From the NCBI GenBank assembly GCA_022801925.1, contig JAAWTG010000004.1, forward strand, positions 1 to 64,000: a stretch of 64,000 nt of DNA. Direction: 5' to 3'. The DNA is from Clostridia bacterium (GTDB lineage: Bacteria > Bacillota > Clostridia > RUG12999). A model generated the notes under the pieces. That model was not told where the DNA came from and made no database searches. It worked only from the letters and a program-made list of their open reading frames with translations. Positions 47,007-55,568 of the stretch are shown piece by piece. Each line of letters opens with the position of its first letter. The first letter of the stretch is position 1. The position numbers were made by a program, and so were the translations under genes.

Positions 47007-47678
47007 TTATGAAATTGTAAGAAGCCCACTGCACCAAGCAATCAATTTTTGATAAGCCGCCTCTGTCTCGGCAGGGGAATAACAAGCAGTTTTATGCCGG
47101 TTGATACATAACACTAAAATATCCGCGTCCGTGCCGGAAAGCAGAGCAAGCAGTTCCTGTTTTTGAGAAATATATTGCTGTGTCCGGTAAAAGTGAAGCG
47201 CCTGTAAAATAAAAAAGGTGCCTTTATAGAGCGAAGGCAGTTTTACTGCGGGCGCTTTGTCATATAGATAACTATGACATGCCGCATGGTAGAGGTTCGC
47301 CGCGCCGATATGAATGGCGTCCTGCACGTCTTGCGGTTGGAGCGGCGGAAAAAGACCGGCGGTCGAGCCGTAGAGTACATGCGTGTCATGCAGCAATTGA
47401 AACAAGTCGTATCGGGGCCAATGCAGCAGTTCCTGTTTGCCGCAGCAAAACCCGCAAGCCTTTTCGGATTCGGGCATGGAAGAGGCGATTTCGCGGTAAA
47501 CCTTCAGGTCGTTGGTATCCAGCGTATCCAAAATAACGACCATATCAATGTCGCTGTCCGCTGTCGCTTCACCGCGTCCATAACTGCCTTGCAGACCAAT
47601 CAGGCATAGGCGGTCTGAAAAAGCAGCCGTACATTTTTGAATGAATTGATTTAACCAGTTTTCTATCCCCAAATTCAT
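47007..47678 (-). CDS. Nucleotidyltransferase-fold protein in the aro operon
   Basis: A 223-residue protein. The N-terminal NT domain has G31-S32 and the paired aspartates D43 and D45 (GSYGRGEATADSDIDMVVILD), the metal-binding core of the Pol beta superfamily. The C-terminal half is helical and resembles substrate-binding or HEPN-type domains attached to such proteins (LYHAACHSYLYDKAPAVKLPSLYKGTFFILQALHFYRT). It starts 2 nt after the pheA stop, and its AAAGGAG lies inside pheA, so it is the last gene of the operon. Substrate unknown; an aminoglycoside-type or regulatory nucleotidyl transfer is possible. Confidence 0.85.
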   Translation of the reverse strand: MNLGIENWLNQFIQKCTAAFSDRLCLIGLQGSYGRGEATADSDIDMVVILDTLDTNDLKVYREIASSMPESEKACGFCCGKQELLHWPRYDLFQLLHDTHVLYGSTAGLFPPLQPQDVQDAIHIGAANLYHAACHSYLYDKAPAVKLPSLYKGTFFILQALHFYRTQQYISQKQELLALLSGTDADILVLCINRHKTACYSPAETEAAYQKLIAWCSGLLTIS

Positions 47679-47680
47679 GA

Positions 47681-48823
47681 TTATTCTCCTTTGAAAGTGG
47701 AAGAAACGCCTGTATAATTGCCCAGCAAAAAGAAATCCTGCGTTTGCGTTTGCAGTAGGGAAATGGTCTGTGCAATACGGGACTCGGAAAGATGTCCTTC
47801 AAAATCTGCATAGAATAAATATTTCCATTTGCTGGCAGGATAGGGGCGTGACTCCAATTTTATGAGATTCAAATTATGTTTTGCAAAGACGCTTAAAGTA
47901 TGATATAAACTGCCGCTTTCGTTGTTCAAAGAAAATGCAATGCTGACCTTGGACGCGCCGGGACAAATCAAAAGGTCTTTTGACACAATCGCAAAGCGCG
48001 TATAATTATTGGGATTATCCTCAATTTCAGATTGTAAAATTTCAAGACCATAGAACGCCGCGCTGCTGGCGCTGCCGATGACGCCGCGCGTTTTATCGCC
48101 GGAGGCCGCCACCATTTTTGCGCTGGCGGCAGTGTTATAATAGGGCGTCAGCTTCACATCTAACGAGGATAAAAAGTTTTCACACTGCATGAACGGTTGG
48201 GGATGGGAGTAGATTTCCTTTAAATTCGCGGTTTTAGCGCCCGGCAGTCCCATTAAATTATGACTGATACGCAAATTGGTCTCACCCACGATATGGTAAC
48301 CGTATTCACAAAACAATTCGTAAGAGTCAAAAATAGAACCGGTGGATGAATTTTCAATGGGGACGATACCATAGTCCGCTTTACCTTGTTTCAAAGTTTC
48401 AAAAACATCGCGGAAGGTAGCGGCGGGAAGTGTAGAGATGCCATCGAAACAGGACTTCATGGCTTCCCAGGTATAGGAACCTTCCGCGCCGTAGAATACC
48501 ACTTGTTTTGCACTCGGCAGTACCGGCGGATACGCCGCGTCCGGCTGCATAGGTGAGTCGGCCGTGACAATATTCAGTTGATACATTTTGCTTAGGTTCA
48601 TCAACGTGCGGAACATTTCCACTGTTTCAAAACGGTAGTTTTCGTTCGCGCCCGCTGCGACATTTTGCAGAATTTCCGCTTCACGCGTTTCGTCCAGTAT
48701 CGGCAGCTCGTGTGCCGCCTTATAACGCGCAATATCGGCAGAAACCTCCATTCGCTGACTGAACAAGTCCAGCATTTGCTGGTTGATTCTGTTGATTTGT
48801 TCCCGTAACTCTTTCAACTCCAT
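47681..48823 (-). CDS. pheA: Bifunctional chorismate mutase/prephenate dehydratase
   Basis: A 380-residue protein with three parts: AroQ chorismate mutase (about 1-85; LREQINRINQQMLDLFSQRMEVSADIARYK), prephenate dehydratase (about 103-285; FYGAEGSYTWEAM, PIENSSTGSI, NNYTRFAIVSKD) and an ACT domain (about 295-370) with the Phe-binding ESRP motif (IKLESRPYPASKWKY). It makes phenylpyruvate from chorismate and should be feedback-inhibited by Phe. I prefer the ATG at 48823, 11 nt after AGGAG; an ATG at 48832 is only 2 nt from it. Confidence 0.96.
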   Translation of the reverse strand: MELKELREQINRINQQMLDLFSQRMEVSADIARYKAAHELPILDETREAEILQNVAAGANENYRFETVEMFRTLMNLSKMYQLNIVTADSPMQPDAAYPPVLPSAKQVVFYGAEGSYTWEAMKSCFDGISTLPAATFRDVFETLKQGKADYGIVPIENSSTGSIFDSYELFCEYGYHIVGETNLRISHNLMGLPGAKTANLKEIYSHPQPFMQCENFLSSLDVKLTPYYNTAASAKMVAASGDKTRGVIGSASSAAFYGLEILQSEIEDNPNNYTRFAIVSKDLLICPGASKVSIAFSLNNESGSLYHTLSVFAKHNLNLIKLESRPYPASKWKYLFYADFEGHLSESRIAQTISLLQTQTQDFFLLGNYTGVSSTFKGE

Positions 48824-48841
48824 AGTTTGCATATCTCCTAT

Positions 48842-49933
48842 CTATATTGACTCAGGATATTCGTCCAGCCATAAATCCATCAGGGAAATTGCCAGCGCTG
48901 ATTCGACAACGACAACAGCGCGCGGAACAATACATGGGTCGTGCCGCCCTTTGCCTGCCAAAACACCCTCCTGCATGGTGTGAATATCGAATGTCCGTTG
49001 TTCCTTGCCAATGGTTGGCGTGGGTTTAAAAGCGGTGTGCACCACAATCGGCATACCGTTTGTGATACCGCCCAGAATGCCGCCGCAGTGATTGGTGTGC
49101 GTTTTCACGCCGCCGTCCAGATAATAGGTGTCGTTGTTTTCTTCTCCGGTCATGCATGTGCAGTCAAATCCGCTGCCGAAAGAAACGCCTTTGACTGCCG
49201 GAACGGCATAAAGAAATGAAGAAACCACGCTTTCTGCATTGCGGAACATGGGGGAACCCAGACCGGCAGGAACGCCTACCGCAATGCATTCCACTGTTCC
49301 GCCGACTGAATTGAGATTTTGTTTTGCGTCCAGAATAGCAGTTTTCATTTTTTTGCCTTGAGTATCGCTTAAAGCAGCGAACTCTTTTTGCCGCAAAACA
49401 GCCAAAGCGGCCAGGTCAGGCTGTACCCAGTCGGTTGGCGCGTCATTGATTCCTGCAATGGCGGAAATATGCGCATAGACTTCAATGCCTTTTTGCCGCA
49501 GAAACTGGCGGCAGATGCTTCCTGCCGCCACCATAGGCGCAGTGAGCCGACCGGAAAAGTGACCGCCGCCGCGGATGTCGTTATGCCCGTTATATTTCAC
49601 CTGCGCCGGATAATCACTGTGTCCAGGGCGCATAAGCGATGCCATTTCATTGTAGTGATGCGACTTGGTATCAGTGTTTTTGAAACAGATACAAAGCGGC
49701 GCGCCGGTGGTGATATCGTTTAAAATGCCGCTCTTGAAAATGGGTTCGTCTGCCTCTTTGCGCGGTGTGGACAGAGCAGATTGTCCAGGTGCGCGGCGGG
49801 ACAAGTGATGACGGATTTCCGCCATATCAAGTTTCAATCCTGCCGGAAGTCCGCTGATAATTACGCCGATTTCAGGACCATGGGATTCACCGAAGATAGA
49901 TAACTGAATGTTTTTTCCCCAGGTAGAACTCAT
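48842..49933 (-). CDS. aroC: Chorismate synthase
   Basis: A 363-residue AroC with signatures GESHGPEIGVIISGLPAG near the start, the RPGHSDYPAQVKY and RGGGHFSGRLTAPMVAAG blocks and DPCIVPRAVVVVES near the end. It converts EPSP to chorismate with reduced flavin. The start at 49933 overlaps the aroA stop (ATGA), which signals translational coupling; a start 30 nt upstream would lie inside aroA. Confidence 0.97.
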   Translation of the reverse strand: MSSTWGKNIQLSIFGESHGPEIGVIISGLPAGLKLDMAEIRHHLSRRAPGQSALSTPRKEADEPIFKSGILNDITTGAPLCICFKNTDTKSHHYNEMASLMRPGHSDYPAQVKYNGHNDIRGGGHFSGRLTAPMVAAGSICRQFLRQKGIEVYAHISAIAGINDAPTDWVQPDLAALAVLRQKEFAALSDTQGKKMKTAILDAKQNLNSVGGTVECIAVGVPAGLGSPMFRNAESVVSSFLYAVPAVKGVSFGSGFDCTCMTGEENNDTYYLDGGVKTHTNHCGGILGGITNGMPIVVHTAFKPTPTIGKEQRTFDIHTMQEGVLAGKGRHDPCIVPRAVVVVESALAISLMDLWLDEYPESI

Positions 49934-51174
49934 TGTTTCTTCAACCTTTCTAATTCCTGCCAAAAGGCGGGATAGGATTTTTGTACGGCGTCCGCGCCGT
50001 CAATGACAATGGGTGCGGTGCTTTTTTGCGCTGCGATAGCAAGCGCCATGGCAATACGGTGGTCGTTATGGGAGGAAACCTGTCCGCCGTGCAGTGTGTC
50101 CACATGACGAATGACAAGACCGTCCTCCAGTTCCGTGATGTCTGCGCCCAGCCGGTTTAATTCGCCGGCAGTTGCTGAGAGCCGGTCGCTTTCTTTCAGC
50201 CGCAGCCGCGCTGCGCCGGTGAGATGCATTTCAGAGCAGCAAAAACTGCCCAAAACGGCAAGAATGGGCACCAAATCGGGAATATCAGAGACGTCAATGC
50301 ATAATTTTTCCGTACCGATTTTTCTGGTAGGGCGTACCAAATACTGTTCTGACACAGAAAAGCCGCATTGTTTCAAAATGGCGATAATTTGACTGTCACC
50401 CTGCGCTGTTGTGGGGGAGAGATTGGAGACGGAAATTTCGCCCCCCAAGGCGTTTGCCACCAGCCAAAAAGCAGCATTAGACCAGTCGCCTTCACACATA
50501 AATTTGCCGGGCGAATGATAGGTTCCGCTGACAGAAAAAGTGCGGTAATTTTCGTGCGAACAGGTGATACCAAACTGTTTCATAATGTCTAGAGTAATAT
50601 CCACATAGGGACGGGATTCCAAAGGCGTAGTCACTTCCAAAACGGAATCGCCGAGCAGCGGCAAAGCAAGCAGCAGTCCGGTGATAAATTGGGAACTGAC
50701 GTTACCACGAATGCGAAGCGTTCCGGACGCCAGTTTGTCTTGCAGCGTAACCGGAAGATTGCCCTGCGCCATATAAGAAAAGCCGTTTTGGTCAAATAGT
50801 TCAAATAAAGGTGTAAGAGGGCGCTGCGGCAGCCGCCCTTCGCCTGTGAAGGTCACATGTGCACCAAGCGCTGCGGCAACGGGCAGGAAAAAACGAATGG
50901 TGGAGCCGGATTCGCGGCAGTTTACCGCCGCCTGTTCCGGCAAGGAGTGCCGCCCTGTAACCGTGATAGAATCACCGATATGAATGTTGGAAAGCAGCGT
51001 TTGGCAAGCGGAAAGCGTTGCCTGAATGTCCTCGGAGAGCAGCAGGGGAGACAGTTCTGTCACGCCACCCGCCAAAGATGCACAAATCAGCGCGCGGTGC
51101 ATGACGCTTTTGGAGGGCAGCATAGAAACTTCTCCGCGCAGCGATGCAGCGCTGACTGTCGTTGAAGTTGCCAT
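49930..51174 (-). CDS. aroA: EPSP synthase (3-phosphoshikimate 1-carboxyvinyltransferase)
   Basis: A 414-residue EPSP synthase: LPSKSVMHRALICASLA (phosphate-binding Lys), ESGSTIRFFLPVAAALG (compare the conserved GNAGTxxR region, variant here), GRLPQRPLTPLFELF and DHRIAMALAIAA near the C-terminus. It joins shikimate-3-phosphate and phosphoenolpyruvate. The ATG at 51174 shares one base with the aroB TGA (TGATG) and has AAAGGCGGG upstream. The SGSTIRF wording, instead of NAGTAxR, is of the kind seen in class II, glyphosate-tolerant enzymes, but this is a motif-level impression. Confidence 0.96.
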   Translation of the reverse strand: MATSTTVSAASLRGEVSMLPSKSVMHRALICASLAGGVTELSPLLLSEDIQATLSACQTLLSNIHIGDSITVTGRHSLPEQAAVNCRESGSTIRFFLPVAAALGAHVTFTGEGRLPQRPLTPLFELFDQNGFSYMAQGNLPVTLQDKLASGTLRIRGNVSSQFITGLLLALPLLGDSVLEVTTPLESRPYVDITLDIMKQFGITCSHENYRTFSVSGTYHSPGKFMCEGDWSNAAFWLVANALGGEISVSNLSPTTAQGDSQIIAILKQCGFSVSEQYLVRPTRKIGTEKLCIDVSDIPDLVPILAVLGSFCCSEMHLTGAARLRLKESDRLSATAGELNRLGADITELEDGLVIRHVDTLHGGQVSSHNDHRIAMALAIAAQKSTAPIVIDGADAVQKSYPAFWQELERLKKQ

Positions 51175-52235
51175 CACATACCCGCCTTTCCCAGCGCTGC
51201 ACAGATGTCGGAAACAAAGTCCGTTGTCGGGACAATGACCCCGTTGCCGATTTCATCTAACATGACAACATGCAGCGTTTTGCCGATGTTCTTTTTGTCG
51301 TTTTGTATCAGCGGTAGCAGTTCCAGCAAATCCGCTTGCGCAATTTGATGAGGAAGATGATAGGCTTCCACCGCGTCCAGCACTTTTTGCGCCGTTCCCG
51401 CTTTTGACGGTCCTATCTGTTCGCTGAACTGTGTCATGAGCACCATACCTAACGCTACCGCTTCGCCATGTGTGAACTTGGTGAATTGATAATATTTTTC
51501 AATGGCATGTCCAATGGTATGCCCGAAATTCAGCAGCATACGCAGACCGGTGTCGTTCGCGTCCACTGCCACGACGTCGCGTTTGATGGAAACGCATTCA
51601 TAAATCAAATCTTCGCGGCTGATAGAGTGGTTTAAAATGGCGTCAAACAACGCTTTGTTGCGGATACAGCCATATTTAATCGCCTCCGCCATGCCGTCAT
51701 AATAAAACCGCTGCGGCAGCGTGTCCAGACAGGTGGGGTCAATCAAAACCAGCTTGGGGTGATAGAAAGCGCCGACCATGTTTTTGCCAAACGGCATATC
51801 GATTGCCACTTTGCCGCCGACAGAGGAATCAATCTGCGCCAAAAGGGAAGTCGGCACCTGCACCAGTCCGATGCCGCGCAGGTAAGAGGCTGCGGCAAAG
51901 CCGGCAAGGTCGCCGGTAACGCCGCCGCCAAGCGCGATGATGAAATCGCCGCGGTTAATATGCTGCTCCGCCAGAAATGCATATATTTTTTGCAGCGTAT
52001 CATTGCATTTGCTCTGTTCACCGTGAGGAAAGACATATTTACATGTTTCCACACCGGCGCGCTGCAAAGACTGCATCACGGTTTCGCCATAAAATTTGTC
52101 CACATTGTCGTCGGTGATGACGGCAGCTTTGCCGTGATAAATGGTACGGACAAATTCACCCAGCCGCGCTAAACAGCCATCCTCAATATGAATGGGGTAT
52201 GAAATGGAATCAAAAGCCACTGTTAATGTTTTCAT
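51174..52235 (-). CDS. aroB: 3-dehydroquinate synthase
   Basis: A 353-residue AroB: NAD-binding GGGVTGDLAGFAAASYLRGIGLVQVPTSLLAQIDSSVGGK-type region (about 100-140), DxxxLRMLLNFGHTIGHAIEKYY with the zinc-ligand His, and HGEAVALGMV. It cyclises DAHP to 3-dehydroquinate. GGGAGG precedes the ATG. It lies 27 nt downstream of aroF. The next pathway genes (aroD, aroE, aroK) are not in the window. Confidence 0.97.
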   Translation of the reverse strand: MKTLTVAFDSISYPIHIEDGCLARLGEFVRTIYHGKAAVITDDNVDKFYGETVMQSLQRAGVETCKYVFPHGEQSKCNDTLQKIYAFLAEQHINRGDFIIALGGGVTGDLAGFAAASYLRGIGLVQVPTSLLAQIDSSVGGKVAIDMPFGKNMVGAFYHPKLVLIDPTCLDTLPQRFYYDGMAEAIKYGCIRNKALFDAILNHSISREDLIYECVSIKRDVVAVDANDTGLRMLLNFGHTIGHAIEKYYQFTKFTHGEAVALGMVLMTQFSEQIGPSKAGTAQKVLDAVEAYHLPHQIAQADLLELLPLIQNDKKNIGKTLHVVMLDEIGNGVIVPTTDFVSDICAALGKAGM

Positions 52236-52261: not shown

Positions 52262-53281
52262 TTATATCGTACGGTCTTCCACTGCCGCGACTTTGCGCAG
52301 ACGTTCCATGGTACCTGCAAATTCGGCAGGAGTAATGGACTGTGCGCCGTCTGACAACGCTTTTTTCGGATTGTTATGCACTTCAATCATCAGACCATCT
52401 GCACCAGCCACAATTGCTGATTTTGCCAGCGGTTCCACCATCCAGTTAATGCCTGCCGCATGGCTGGGGTCAATGACAATGGGAAGGTGGGACAATTTTT
52501 TCAGTGCCGGAACTGCACTGATGTCAAGCGTGTTGCGCGTATATGGCTCAAAAGTACGGATACCGCGTTCGCACAGAATAACCTGTTCATTGCCGCCCGC
52601 CATGATATATTCCGCGCTCATGAGCAGTTCCTCCAGTGTGTTTGCAAGTCCGCGTTTGAGCAAAATAGGACGGTTGATTCTGCCGAGTTCCTTCAGCAAT
52701 TCAAAGTTTTGCATGTTGCGCGCACCCACTTGAATCACGTCCACATCAAATTTCTCGAAAATTTCAATATGAGCAATATCCATCAATTCTGTCACAATGG
52801 GCAGTCCTGTTTCTTTTTTTGCAATGTCCAGAAGTTTCAGTCCGTCGTTGTGCAGCCCCTGGAAAGAGTAGGGGGAAGTGCGTGGTTTGAATGCGCCGCC
52901 GCGTAAAAACGTTGCGCCTGCTTTTTTGATGTCCTGCGCGATTCCTACAATCTGTTCCTCGGATTCCACGGAACAGGGTCCTGCCATGACTACTAATTTC
53001 TGTTTGTCGCCGATTTTGATACCTTTCACATCATAGACGGAATTTTCAGGATGAAATTTCCGGTTTGCTTTTTTGAACGGTTCTTGTACGCGCGTCACTT
53101 TTTCCACTGCGTCATTGGCATTCAGCGCGTCAATATCGACCGCGGAAGTATCGCCGACCAAGCCCAATATACGGGCGCCCACGCCGGAAATACCCTGCAC
53201 ATCCAAACCTAAATCCTGCACATCAGCGATAAGCTTTTGTACCGCTTCCTCCGTTGCTCCTTGATTGATTACAATAATCAT
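52262..53281 (-). CDS. aroF: DAHP synthase (3-deoxy-7-phosphoheptulonate synthase)
   Basis: A 339-residue enzyme of the beta class (AroF/KDO8P-synthase-like): an N-terminal ferredoxin-like regulatory domain (about 1-70; MIIVINQGATEEAVQKLI) and a TIM barrel with VMAGPCSVESEEQI, FLRGGAFKPRTSPYSFQGL, QVGARNMQNFELLKELG and PIVIDPSHAAGI. It joins phosphoenolpyruvate and erythrose-4-phosphate, the first step of the shikimate pathway. AAGGAG precedes the ATG. Expression is probably set by the attenuator upstream (53329-53516). Confidence 0.97.
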   Translation of the reverse strand: MIIVINQGATEEAVQKLIADVQDLGLDVQGISGVGARILGLVGDTSAVDIDALNANDAVEKVTRVQEPFKKANRKFHPENSVYDVKGIKIGDKQKLVVMAGPCSVESEEQIVGIAQDIKKAGATFLRGGAFKPRTSPYSFQGLHNDGLKLLDIAKKETGLPIVTELMDIAHIEIFEKFDVDVIQVGARNMQNFELLKELGRINRPILLKRGLANTLEELLMSAEYIMAGGNEQVILCERGIRTFEPYTRNTLDISAVPALKKLSHLPIVIDPSHAAGINWMVEPLAKSAIVAGADGLMIEVHNNPKKALSDGAQSITPAEFAGTMERLRKVAAVEDRTI

Positions 53282-53328
53282 AATCCTTCACTCCTTCATA
53301 TCCTACAAAATTTTTTTATATCAAAAAA

Positions 53329-53354
53329 AGCGGCTCGTGATACCACGAACCGCT
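53329..53354 (-). terminator. Attenuator terminator of the aro operon, with competing antiterminator
   Basis: In the minus-strand transcript, AGCGGTTCGTG (53354-53344) pairs with CACGAGCCGCT (53339-53329) around a GTAT loop, followed by a U-run (53329-53323). One U-G pair. The terminator's TGGTATCAC (plus 53337-53345) is exactly complementary to GTGATACCA in the leader coding region (plus 53417-53425). Pairing of these would break the terminator. The latter lies just behind the Phe/Tyr codons, so a stalled ribosome would leave it free to pair. Confidence 0.8.
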
Positions 53355-53387
53355 TGATTTGCAACTATACCGAACTCACAGGGCAAA

Positions 53388-53516
53388 TTAGCCCAGAGCC
53401 GGACGCTTCAAACGCATGGTATCACTTTTTTTGCAGCAAAAATAGCCAGTGCTAAAGTAATAATAGCCTGGAAAGTAAAAGAAAAATTCTTTTGCTGTCA
53501 TGCTGCGAGACGCCAT
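53388..53516 (-). CDS. Phe/Tyr-rich leader peptide (attenuation)
   Basis: A 42-codon frame starting at 53516 with AAGGAG at 53530-53525 (8-nt spacing) and ending TAA at 53388-53390. Residues 11-26 read FFFYFPGYYYFSTGYF, with 6 Phe and 5 Tyr, followed by Cys-Cys-Lys-Lys. A U-run terminator follows before aroF, and an alternative pairing that disrupts it begins right behind the aromatic codons. These are the parts of ribosome-mediated attenuation as in enteric phe/trp leaders. Low charged tRNA-Phe or tRNA-Tyr would stall the ribosome and let the aro/pheA genes be transcribed. No T-box sequence is visible. Mechanism is inferred. Confidence 0.85.
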   Translation of the reverse strand: MASRSMTAKEFFFYFPGYYYFSTGYFCCKKSDTMRLKRPALG

Positions 53517-53549
53517 GGTAAAAACTCCTTATCAATAATGATTGTTACT

Positions 53550-53579
53550 ATTTTATCATAGGACGGGTTTTTATGTCAA
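53550..53579 (-). promoter_or_regulatory. Promoter of the aro operon leader
   Basis: On the minus strand: TTGACA (53579-53574), 18-bp spacer, TAAAAT (53555-53550), 20 nt before the leader ribosome site. Confidence 0.75.
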
Positions 53580-53783: not shown

Positions 53784-55568
53784 ATGATGATAGATGAATT
53801 GATTGGAAGATTGCCCAAAGTGGGAATCCGTCCTGCGATTGACGGACGCCGAATGGGCGTGCGGGAGTCGCTGGAAGAAAAAACAATGGAAATGGCGAAG
53901 GCAGCGGCAAAATTGATTGCAGACAATTTGAAATATCCAAACGGTAAGCCGGTGGAAGTTGTTATTTCTGATTGCACCATTGCGTGTGCGGCGGAATCTG
54001 CAAAATGCCAGGAGAAATTTGACAGAGAAGGCGTGAAAGTGTCTCTGACGGTTACGCCGTGCTGGTGCTACGGAACAGAGACCATGGATCTTACGCCCAA
54101 CACCCCCAAAGCAGTTTGGGGATTTAATGGAACAGAACGTCCCGGAGCAGTATATCTGGCGGCGGCGTTGGCAGCGTATAGTCAGAAAGGACTACCGGCG
54201 TTTGGTATCTATGGAAAAGACGTGCAAGATGTAGATGATAACAGTATTCCGGAAGATGTGCAGGAAAAAATCCTGCGCTTTGCCAAAGCAGGTATTGCGG
54301 TGGCATTGATGGAAGGAAAATCCTATCTGTCTTTTGGTAACGTTGCAATGGGTATCGGCGGTTCTGTTGTGGACAACAATTTCTTCTATGACTATCTGGG
54401 TATCCGCAATGAATATGTAGATATGGTGGAATTCATGCGCCGCATGGATTTGGGTATCTATGATAAAGAAGAATTTGAAAAAGCGCTTGCTTGGGCAAAA
54501 GAAAACTGCAAAGAAGGATTTGACAAAAATCCGCAGCCGCACAGCCGTGAGCAGAAAGACCAGGAATGGGAAACCGTTGTAAAAATGACAATGATTATGC
54601 GCGACATGATGATTGGCAATCCCAAACTGGCGGAAATGGGATATGTGGAAGAAAGCAACGGCAGAAATGCAATCGCTGCCGGATTCCAGGGACAGCGTCA
54701 ATGGACGGACTATATGCCCAACGGCGATTTCTCGGAAGCAATTTTGAACTCTTCTTTTGACTGGACAGGAAAACGCGAACCCATGACAGTTGCGACAGAA
54801 AACGACAGCCTTAACGGCGTGGCAATGCTGTTTGGAAAATTGTTGACAAACACGGCGCAGGTGTTCTGCGATGTGCGTACATATTGGAGTCCCGACGCGA
54901 TTGAACGCGTTTCCGGAAAACTGCCGGAATCCGCGAAAGATGGCGTGATTCATTTGATTAACTCCGGTGCGGCGGCGCTGGACGGTTCGGGACAGGCGGA
55001 AATTGACGGAAAACCGGCAATCAAACCGTTCTGGGAACTGGACGACAAAGAAGTGGATAAATGCCTCAAAGCAACAGATTGGTGTCCGGCTGATTTGTGC
55101 TATTTCCGCGGCGGCGGATTCTCTTCGCATTTCTTCACACGCGGCGGTATGCCGATGACAATGATTCGTTTGAACCTGGTGAAAGGATTGGGACCGGTGC
55201 TGCAAATTGCAGAAGGCTACAGTGTAGATTTGCCGCAAGATGTGTGCGAAATATTGGATAAGAGAACAGACCCGACATGGCCGACCACTTGGTTTGTACC
55301 GCGTCTGAACGGAAAGAATGCGTTTACCGATACTTACCATGTGATGGCAAACTGGGGCGCAAACCATTGTGCACTGTCCTATGGACATATTGGTGCAGAC
55401 CTCATTACCATGGCATCCATGCTGCGTATTCCGGTTAGTATGCACAACGTGGAAGAAACGGATATTTTCCGTCCGAGTGCATGGAGCGCATTTGGCACCA
55501 AAGATTTGGAAGGCGCTGATTACCGCGCTTGCATGAACTTTGGTCCGGTTTATAATAAATATAAATAA
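53784..55568 (+). CDS. fucI: L-fucose isomerase
   Basis: A 594-residue protein with the FucI pattern from the first residues ([30 protein letters not shown]) and the expected length of about 590. Metal-site blocks include LVIAL-type [32 protein letters not shown] and [19 protein letters not shown]. It interconverts L-fucose and L-fuculose, and often D-arabinose/D-ribulose, with Mn2+. AGGAGG lies upstream; ATG at 53787 is an equal alternative. It stands alone with its own promoter and terminator; fuculokinase and fuculose-phosphate aldolase are not here, and fucU lies far left at 11844. Confidence 0.95.

Follow-up and report, generated by a model that had tools for sequence, protein, structure and literature searches.

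The aroF operon of the Clostridia bacterium analyzed here is very probably preceded by a ribosome-mediated transcription attenuator, which would make expression of aroF-aroB-aroA-aroC-pheA depend on how much charged tRNA-Phe and tRNA-Tyr is available. The window (the whole stretch of DNA that was analyzed, 64,000 nucleotides) contains the leader ORF, its control codons, a terminator, and a predicted alternative fold that excludes the terminator. The following parts of such an attenuator are in place: a promoter, a Shine-Dalgarno site and a short ORF; an excess of conserved Phe and Tyr codons ahead of an operon that includes pheA; an intrinsic terminator between the ORF and aroF; and an antiterminator that covaries with the terminator and is mutually exclusive with it. 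The leader belongs to a class-wide family that marks an aromatic-amino-acid regulon.

The aroF operon and its leader

The features of the operon and its upstream region are as follows.

47681..48832, minus strand: pheA, chorismate mutase-prephenate dehydratase (the best-matching models, which score under their curated cut-offs)
48842..49963, minus strand: aroC, chorismate synthase, gene of the aroF operon
49930..51177, minus strand: aroA, EPSP synthase, gene of the aroF operon
51174..52235, minus strand: aroB, 3-dehydroquinate synthase, gene of the aroF operon
52262..53281, minus strand: aroF, DAHP synthase, first gene of the operon (PRK08673/TIGR01361)
53328..53355, minus strand: intrinsic terminator, a 12-bp stem with a 4-nt loop GUAU, then U7
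53337..53365, minus strand: antiterminator partner, which shares bases with the terminator in its 5' arm, in the loop, and where the 3' arm begins
53388..53516, minus strand: leader peptide ORF, 42 codons (ATG at 53516, stop at 53388)
53405..53425, minus strand: antiterminator strand GUGAUACCAUGCGUUUGAAGC, 21 nt, codons 31-38 (from folding; the core is an 11-mer)
53439..53486, minus strand: control region, codons 11-26, 11/16 Phe/Tyr (from translation and shuffle comparison)
53446..53471, minus strand: P1 hairpin, inside the leader ORF (fold of -9.1 kcal/mol; covariation in relatives)
53525..53530, minus strand: Shine-Dalgarno AAGGAG, 8 nt ahead of the ATG (from sequence)
53550..53579, minus strand: putative sigma-70-type promoter (consensus match only, 11/12 positions)

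The operon is ordered aroF-aroB-aroA-aroC-pheA with pheA as its last gene, and the leader and terminator lie upstream on the same strand; the other flank of the leader region is a divergent L-fucose isomerase gene that begins at 53784. The aroB and aroA frames overlap by 4 nt (51174-51177) and the aroA and aroC frames by 34 nt (49930-49963), with aroC called from a TTG start; these overlaps probably reflect translational coupling, or an aroC start that lies further in. Directly 3' of pheA there is a gene with weak similarity to MntA/nucleotidyltransferases (47007-47678, minus strand), which possibly shares the pheA transcript.

A sequence-only reading of this region had proposed a 42-codon frame with its own promoter and AAGGAG, containing 11 Phe/Tyr in 16 residues and followed by a Rho-independent terminator ahead of aroF. 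All of these are present on the minus strand, the terminator spanning 53355-53328 with 12 bp, a 4-nt loop and T7. The promoter consists of TTGACA (53579-53574) and TAAAAT (53555-53550) separated by an 18-nt spacer, with TG ahead of the second hexamer, and the ORF encodes the peptide MASRSMTAKEFFFYFPGYYYFSTGYFCCKKSDTMRLKRPALG. Its score of 11 aromatic residues in 16 was attained by none of the dinucleotide shuffles. Conservation was examined with nine genomes of the window's order in the comparison set, one of which (G002) is a genus mate. Its leader ORF differs from that of the window at 1 of 129 nt and its aroF at 104 of 1020 nt (95 synonymous codons), so the leader is held at the nucleotide level within the genus. 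The stretch between the stop codon and the terminator has diverged in G002, and the terminator stem is preserved there, with U-G/U-A swapped for U-A/U-G.

A leader family across the Clostridia

Among 168 non-identical aroF upstream regions, collected mostly from Clostridia, 51% contain an ORF in which 8 or more of 16 residues are aromatic, a figure that falls to 4% for the reverse strand and to 1% for dinucleotide shuffles; with at least 10 in 16 the figure is 25%, and both the reverse strand and the shuffles give none. The aromatic codons, on whose conservation in relatives the sequence-only reading had staked its proposal, are thus found in leaders ahead of roughly every second aroF gene in this set, the remainder having no leader at the lower threshold. 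A Shine-Dalgarno-like site precedes a start at 80 of the 90 leader loci. Changes at aromatic positions comprise 72 that are synonymous, 101 swaps among F, Y and W, and 74 losses; at the sequence level, the codons are kept aromatic while their third positions and F/Y/W identity drift.

A profile built from 26 leaders finds members (E <= 1e-3) in 63 of 391 sampled Clostridia genomes, representing 20 families, with some of the profile rows themselves coming from these genomes; the window leader scores E 1.3e-12 and is one of the 26 rows. Further members occur elsewhere in the phylum, outside the Clostridia. Carriers include Clostridium species, a cryptic strain of Clostridioides difficile, Sedimentibacter, Acetobacterium, Blautia, Sporomusa, and a Phascolarctobacterium MAG. 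We note that a second type of leader is found ahead of aroF at loci L078, L079, L095, L099, L137, L161 and L175; its peptide, T-[RK]-F-[TI]-x-F-x-x-P-[RG]-[YF]-F, is more conserved than that of the main type. These leaders also keep CGA as an Arg codon and have a terminator of the form CGGAGC...

Most leaders lie upstream of aroF, and others precede aroB (L186), tyrA (L210, L213), pheA or prephenate dehydratase genes (L226, L227, L229, L230), an AroFGH-type DAHP synthase gene (L228), and an SSS-family sodium symporter gene (L223 and L225, in genomes G116 and G160). All of the classified downstream genes function in aromatic biosynthesis, bar this one type of transporter, for which the nearest NCBIfam model is PutP, under its cut-off. 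If the leader works as proposed, the symporter that it precedes probably imports aromatic amino acids, and this uncharacterised transporter illustrates how the leader can be used to find members of the regulon.

Accounts of how Clostridia regulate the shikimate/Phe/Tyr pathway usually centre on T-boxes. The window leader has no Rfam match to the T-box family RF00230, and a T-box reading of it was rejected for that reason. The genome from which the window comes does have eight T-boxes elsewhere, six of them over the cut-off (L176-L183); these (L181 and seven others) lie upstream of genes that ORF reading identifies as pheS-like, aspS-like and leuA-like. This genome therefore probably senses tRNA-Phe charging by a T-box at pheS and by a leader peptide at aroF. 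At other loci a T-box stands upstream of aroF instead of the leader (L090, L106, L113, L120, L123, L128 and L007), mostly within one Clostridia family (f7), so that the sensor is exchanged at one and the same gene and aroF provides a natural series of sensor swaps. A T-box at aroF resembles the leader in responding to tRNA charging and in the gene that it controls, but differs in that the RNA reads the tRNA directly and translation is not involved.

Pairing of the leader tail with the terminator

A 9-base segment just behind the aromatic codons had been noted as perfectly complementary to the loop and 3' arm of the terminator. The two 9-mers are present and their pairing is perfect, GTGATACCA (53425-53417) with TGGTATCAC (53345-53337), within a helix of 11 bp that includes one G-U pair. 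The description of their setting needs amendment: TGGTATCAC runs from the last bases of the 5' arm through the loop into the first bases of the 3' arm, and the 9-mer is only the core of a larger, 21-nt antiterminator strand (53425-53405), which is predicted to form 11 bp with 53347-53337, 7 bp with 53357-53351, and 3 bp with 53365-53363. In this fold the terminator 5' arm is occupied by the antiterminator except for a bulged GUU. A different pairing, between CCGGCUC (53402-53396) and GAGCCG of the terminator 3' arm, was rejected, as inspection shows GGACCG in G002.

When compared with single-locus shuffles, the complementarity of the window's own leader and terminator is not significant alone (p 0.21); a cross-locus swap test was therefore used, and the significance comes from the family. 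Leader tails pair with their own terminators 4.2 kcal/mol better on average than with those of other loci (0/5000 permutations), and a contiguous helix of -11 kcal/mol or lower is found with 78% of own terminators and 32% of swapped ones. Leader AAUGAGU is matched by terminator ACUCAUU in Clostridium, UGAUGAGUU by GGCUCAUCA in L138, AAAGCUCGCUU by AGGCGAGCUUU in L136, and CUGCUGUA together with AAACAUU by GGUGUUU..UACAGCAG in L068. Conservation of the complementary segments in relatives, the second property on which the earlier proposal had hung and for which it had suggested a covariance search, thus takes the form of a pairing that is kept while its sequences covary wholesale.

A terminator lies in the last 250 nt of 80 of the 90 leader loci, 39 of the 78 other aroF loci, and 2 of 168 shuffles. 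Because half of the leaderless aroF genes are also preceded by terminators, it might be supposed that the terminator is a fixed one that merely lowers aroF transcription, independently of amino acids; such a device would have no role for the aromatic codons or for the locus-by-locus covariation of leader tail and terminator, and we consider it barely credible.

Ribosome-mediated attenuation would operate as follows. A shortage of Phe or Tyr would stall the ribosome at codons 11-26, and even at the last of these its front edge would remain just short of the antiterminator strand in codons 31-38; the free strand would pair with the terminator 5' arm during transcription, and RNA polymerase would read into aroF. 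Given ample Phe and Tyr, the ribosome would instead reach the stop codon and hide or clear the antiterminator strand while the polymerase makes the terminator, and transcription would stop. The P1 hairpin would form behind the polymerase.

Folding of the window RNA is consistent with much of this scheme. The antiterminator and terminator states are nearly isoenergetic (-39.9 and -40.8 kcal/mol). To represent the stalled state, the RNA not covered by a ribosome on the last control codon, Phe26, was folded with the polymerase at a series of positions between 53344 and 53330; the antiterminator came out best at every position tested, and the terminator overtook it only once its own last bases were made. 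The terminator wins if there is no ribosome on the leader, and is the sole fold able to form if the RNA is hidden up to and past the stop codon. With a ribosome on the stop codon alone and the 5' end free, the antiterminator keeps the lowest energy, and it yields to the terminator only when the 5' end is hidden too. The stop codon lies 24 nt past the core antiterminator strand and approximately 14 nt past the extended strand, so that a ribosome resting on it would hide little of the antiterminator; since the antiterminator then stays best, the terminating state in the window would need a following ribosome, folding of the 5' end, or kinetics. The terminating step is the weakest part of the attenuation model, and is least clear in the window itself. 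Across the leader loci, the median distance from the end of the antiterminator helix to the leader stop codon is 10 nt, which, given the size of a ribosome, suggests that the antiterminator of most relatives would be covered directly once a ribosome rests on the stop codon; the geometry fits about 60% of loci, and not clearly the window, and own-terminator helices are only modestly closer to the stop codon than swapped ones. Direct cover by the stop-codon ribosome is simpler than the four-segment arrangement of E. coli.

The P1 hairpin and comparison with known systems

Leader peptides from different families share the motif G-[FY]n-S-x-G, in which 60 of 61 Ser codons are AGC. Elsewhere in these leaders Ser is encoded by all six codons, and AGC makes up 77 of 275. 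The hairpin P1, of the form NNNN-R-GCU, a loop of Phe/Tyr codons, then AGC-N-NNGG, accounts for the fixed AGC. In the window it reads CCAG GCUA (9-nt loop of Tyr/Phe codons) UAGC A CUGG, with a bulged A where relatives usually have a 1x1 mismatch. The inner GCU:AGC is paired in 98% of loci, against 16% expected from random synonymous codons, and over 21 distinct stems pairing is seen in 93.9% of cells, where slid registers give 26-45%. For covariation the score is 0.42, compared with 0.27 for shuffles (0/500), related rows not being independent, and covariation of the outer stem exceeds that of all 5000 shuffles, with six pair types at one position. An AGC-NNNN-GCU tetraloop was also considered as the source of the codon conservation and rejected; it pairs in 92% of loci and fails in L134, L114 and L068, where P1 survives, and it is the outer stem of P1 that covaries.

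That a longer pattern, G-[FY]n-S-x-G-[FY]-x-C, is common to several families raises the alternative of nascent-peptide arrest, in which the leader peptide itself would stall the ribosome according to free Phe/Tyr or their lack, as the TnaC peptide stalls it in response to free Trp. We regard this as very unlikely: F, Y and W interchange, the Ser codon and the hairpin covariation show that RNA constraint accounts for the invariant residues that are not aromatic, and conserved residues beyond these, as expected of a TnaC-type peptide, are not found in the leader. Locus L010 retains the AGC..GCU bases even though its residues have become FSMAL. Moreover, the presence of the free amino acid should turn biosynthesis genes off, not on. 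No better are the prospects of an RNA-only element, whether a riboswitch or a P1 that binds a protein, with the ORF incidental; P1 is a real, conserved and covarying hairpin and the leader is conserved at the nucleotide level within the genus, but the aromatic content, Shine-Dalgarno sites and in-frame conservation are unnecessary for such an element, P1 is presumably too small for a typical metabolite aptamer, and the leader has no match to an Rfam family.

Within ribosome-mediated attenuation, P1 is by analogy most likely a pause hairpin that lets the ribosome catch up and synchronise with the polymerase, a role that is a guess and for which it may be likened to the 1:2 hairpin of the trp leader. 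We put at roughly even the chances that these leaders constitute a Clostridia-wide subclass of attenuators in which the control codons form the P1 loop, the position of the ribosome there opens or closes P1, and P1 acts as a pause or timing gate within the sensor, the peptide motif being a by-product. P1 and the motif provide a clear case of a 'conserved small peptide' that is conserved because of RNA structure, and the codon-loop hairpin was matched to no described system.

No curated model in Rfam 15, Pfam or NCBIfam matches the leader RNA or peptide, the peptide is recorded in none of the annotation libraries searched, and no report of an aromatic (Phe/Tyr) leader in Clostridia was found in the open-access literature. 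A study of C. difficile transcript starts lists T-boxes among its long leaders, and a search of its text showed no aromatic leader element (PMC7438776). Phe/Tyr attenuation of a DAHP-synthase operon had been thought new for this group; this stands as far as the searched databases and open-access papers go, with the qualification that Firmicutes attenuators are known for other amino acids and that a Phe uORF has been predicted upstream of aroF in Acholeplasma (RNA Biol 2021; PMC8632094). The latter motif, uORFC-13-1, comprises 24 sequences with at least one Phe codon, found only in Acholeplasma and unknown environmental organisms (PMC8632094). Like the Clostridia leader, it places a Phe-codon uORF and a terminator before a DAHP-synthase gene, with sensing of Phe incorporation proposed; compared by description only, the Clostridia leader differs in its class-wide spread, in its runs of both Phe and Tyr, in its hairpin with a loop of control codons, and in a regulon of several genes. 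Leader-peptide attenuators have also been predicted within the Clostridia for the his operon of C. difficile and other Peptostreptococcaceae (PMC9413887), although these use His codons and are found in few genera. Elsewhere in the Firmicutes, leader-peptide attenuation has experimental support for the S. aureus ilv-leu peptide (PMC5794164) and is described for Bacillus hisS/hisZ (PMC2965389), but these concern other amino acids and operons.

Leader-peptide attenuation is thus a known kind of regulation that is no longer confined to the Proteobacteria, and the Phe/Tyr leader is a new and apparently undescribed family within it. If this is correct, many gut and industrial Clostridia, including Clostridioides and relatives of Blautia, would regulate the entry enzyme of the pathway by a leader peptide. 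The Yanofsky-type attenuators of E. coli pheA and trp likewise have control codons for the product amino acid, a terminator, an alternative antiterminator, and a hairpin near the control codons. The Clostridia leader differs from them in that its conserved hairpin has the control codons as its loop, in having no match to an Rfam leader family, and in the location of its antiterminator strand, which is within the last codons of the leader here and beyond the ORF in E. coli.
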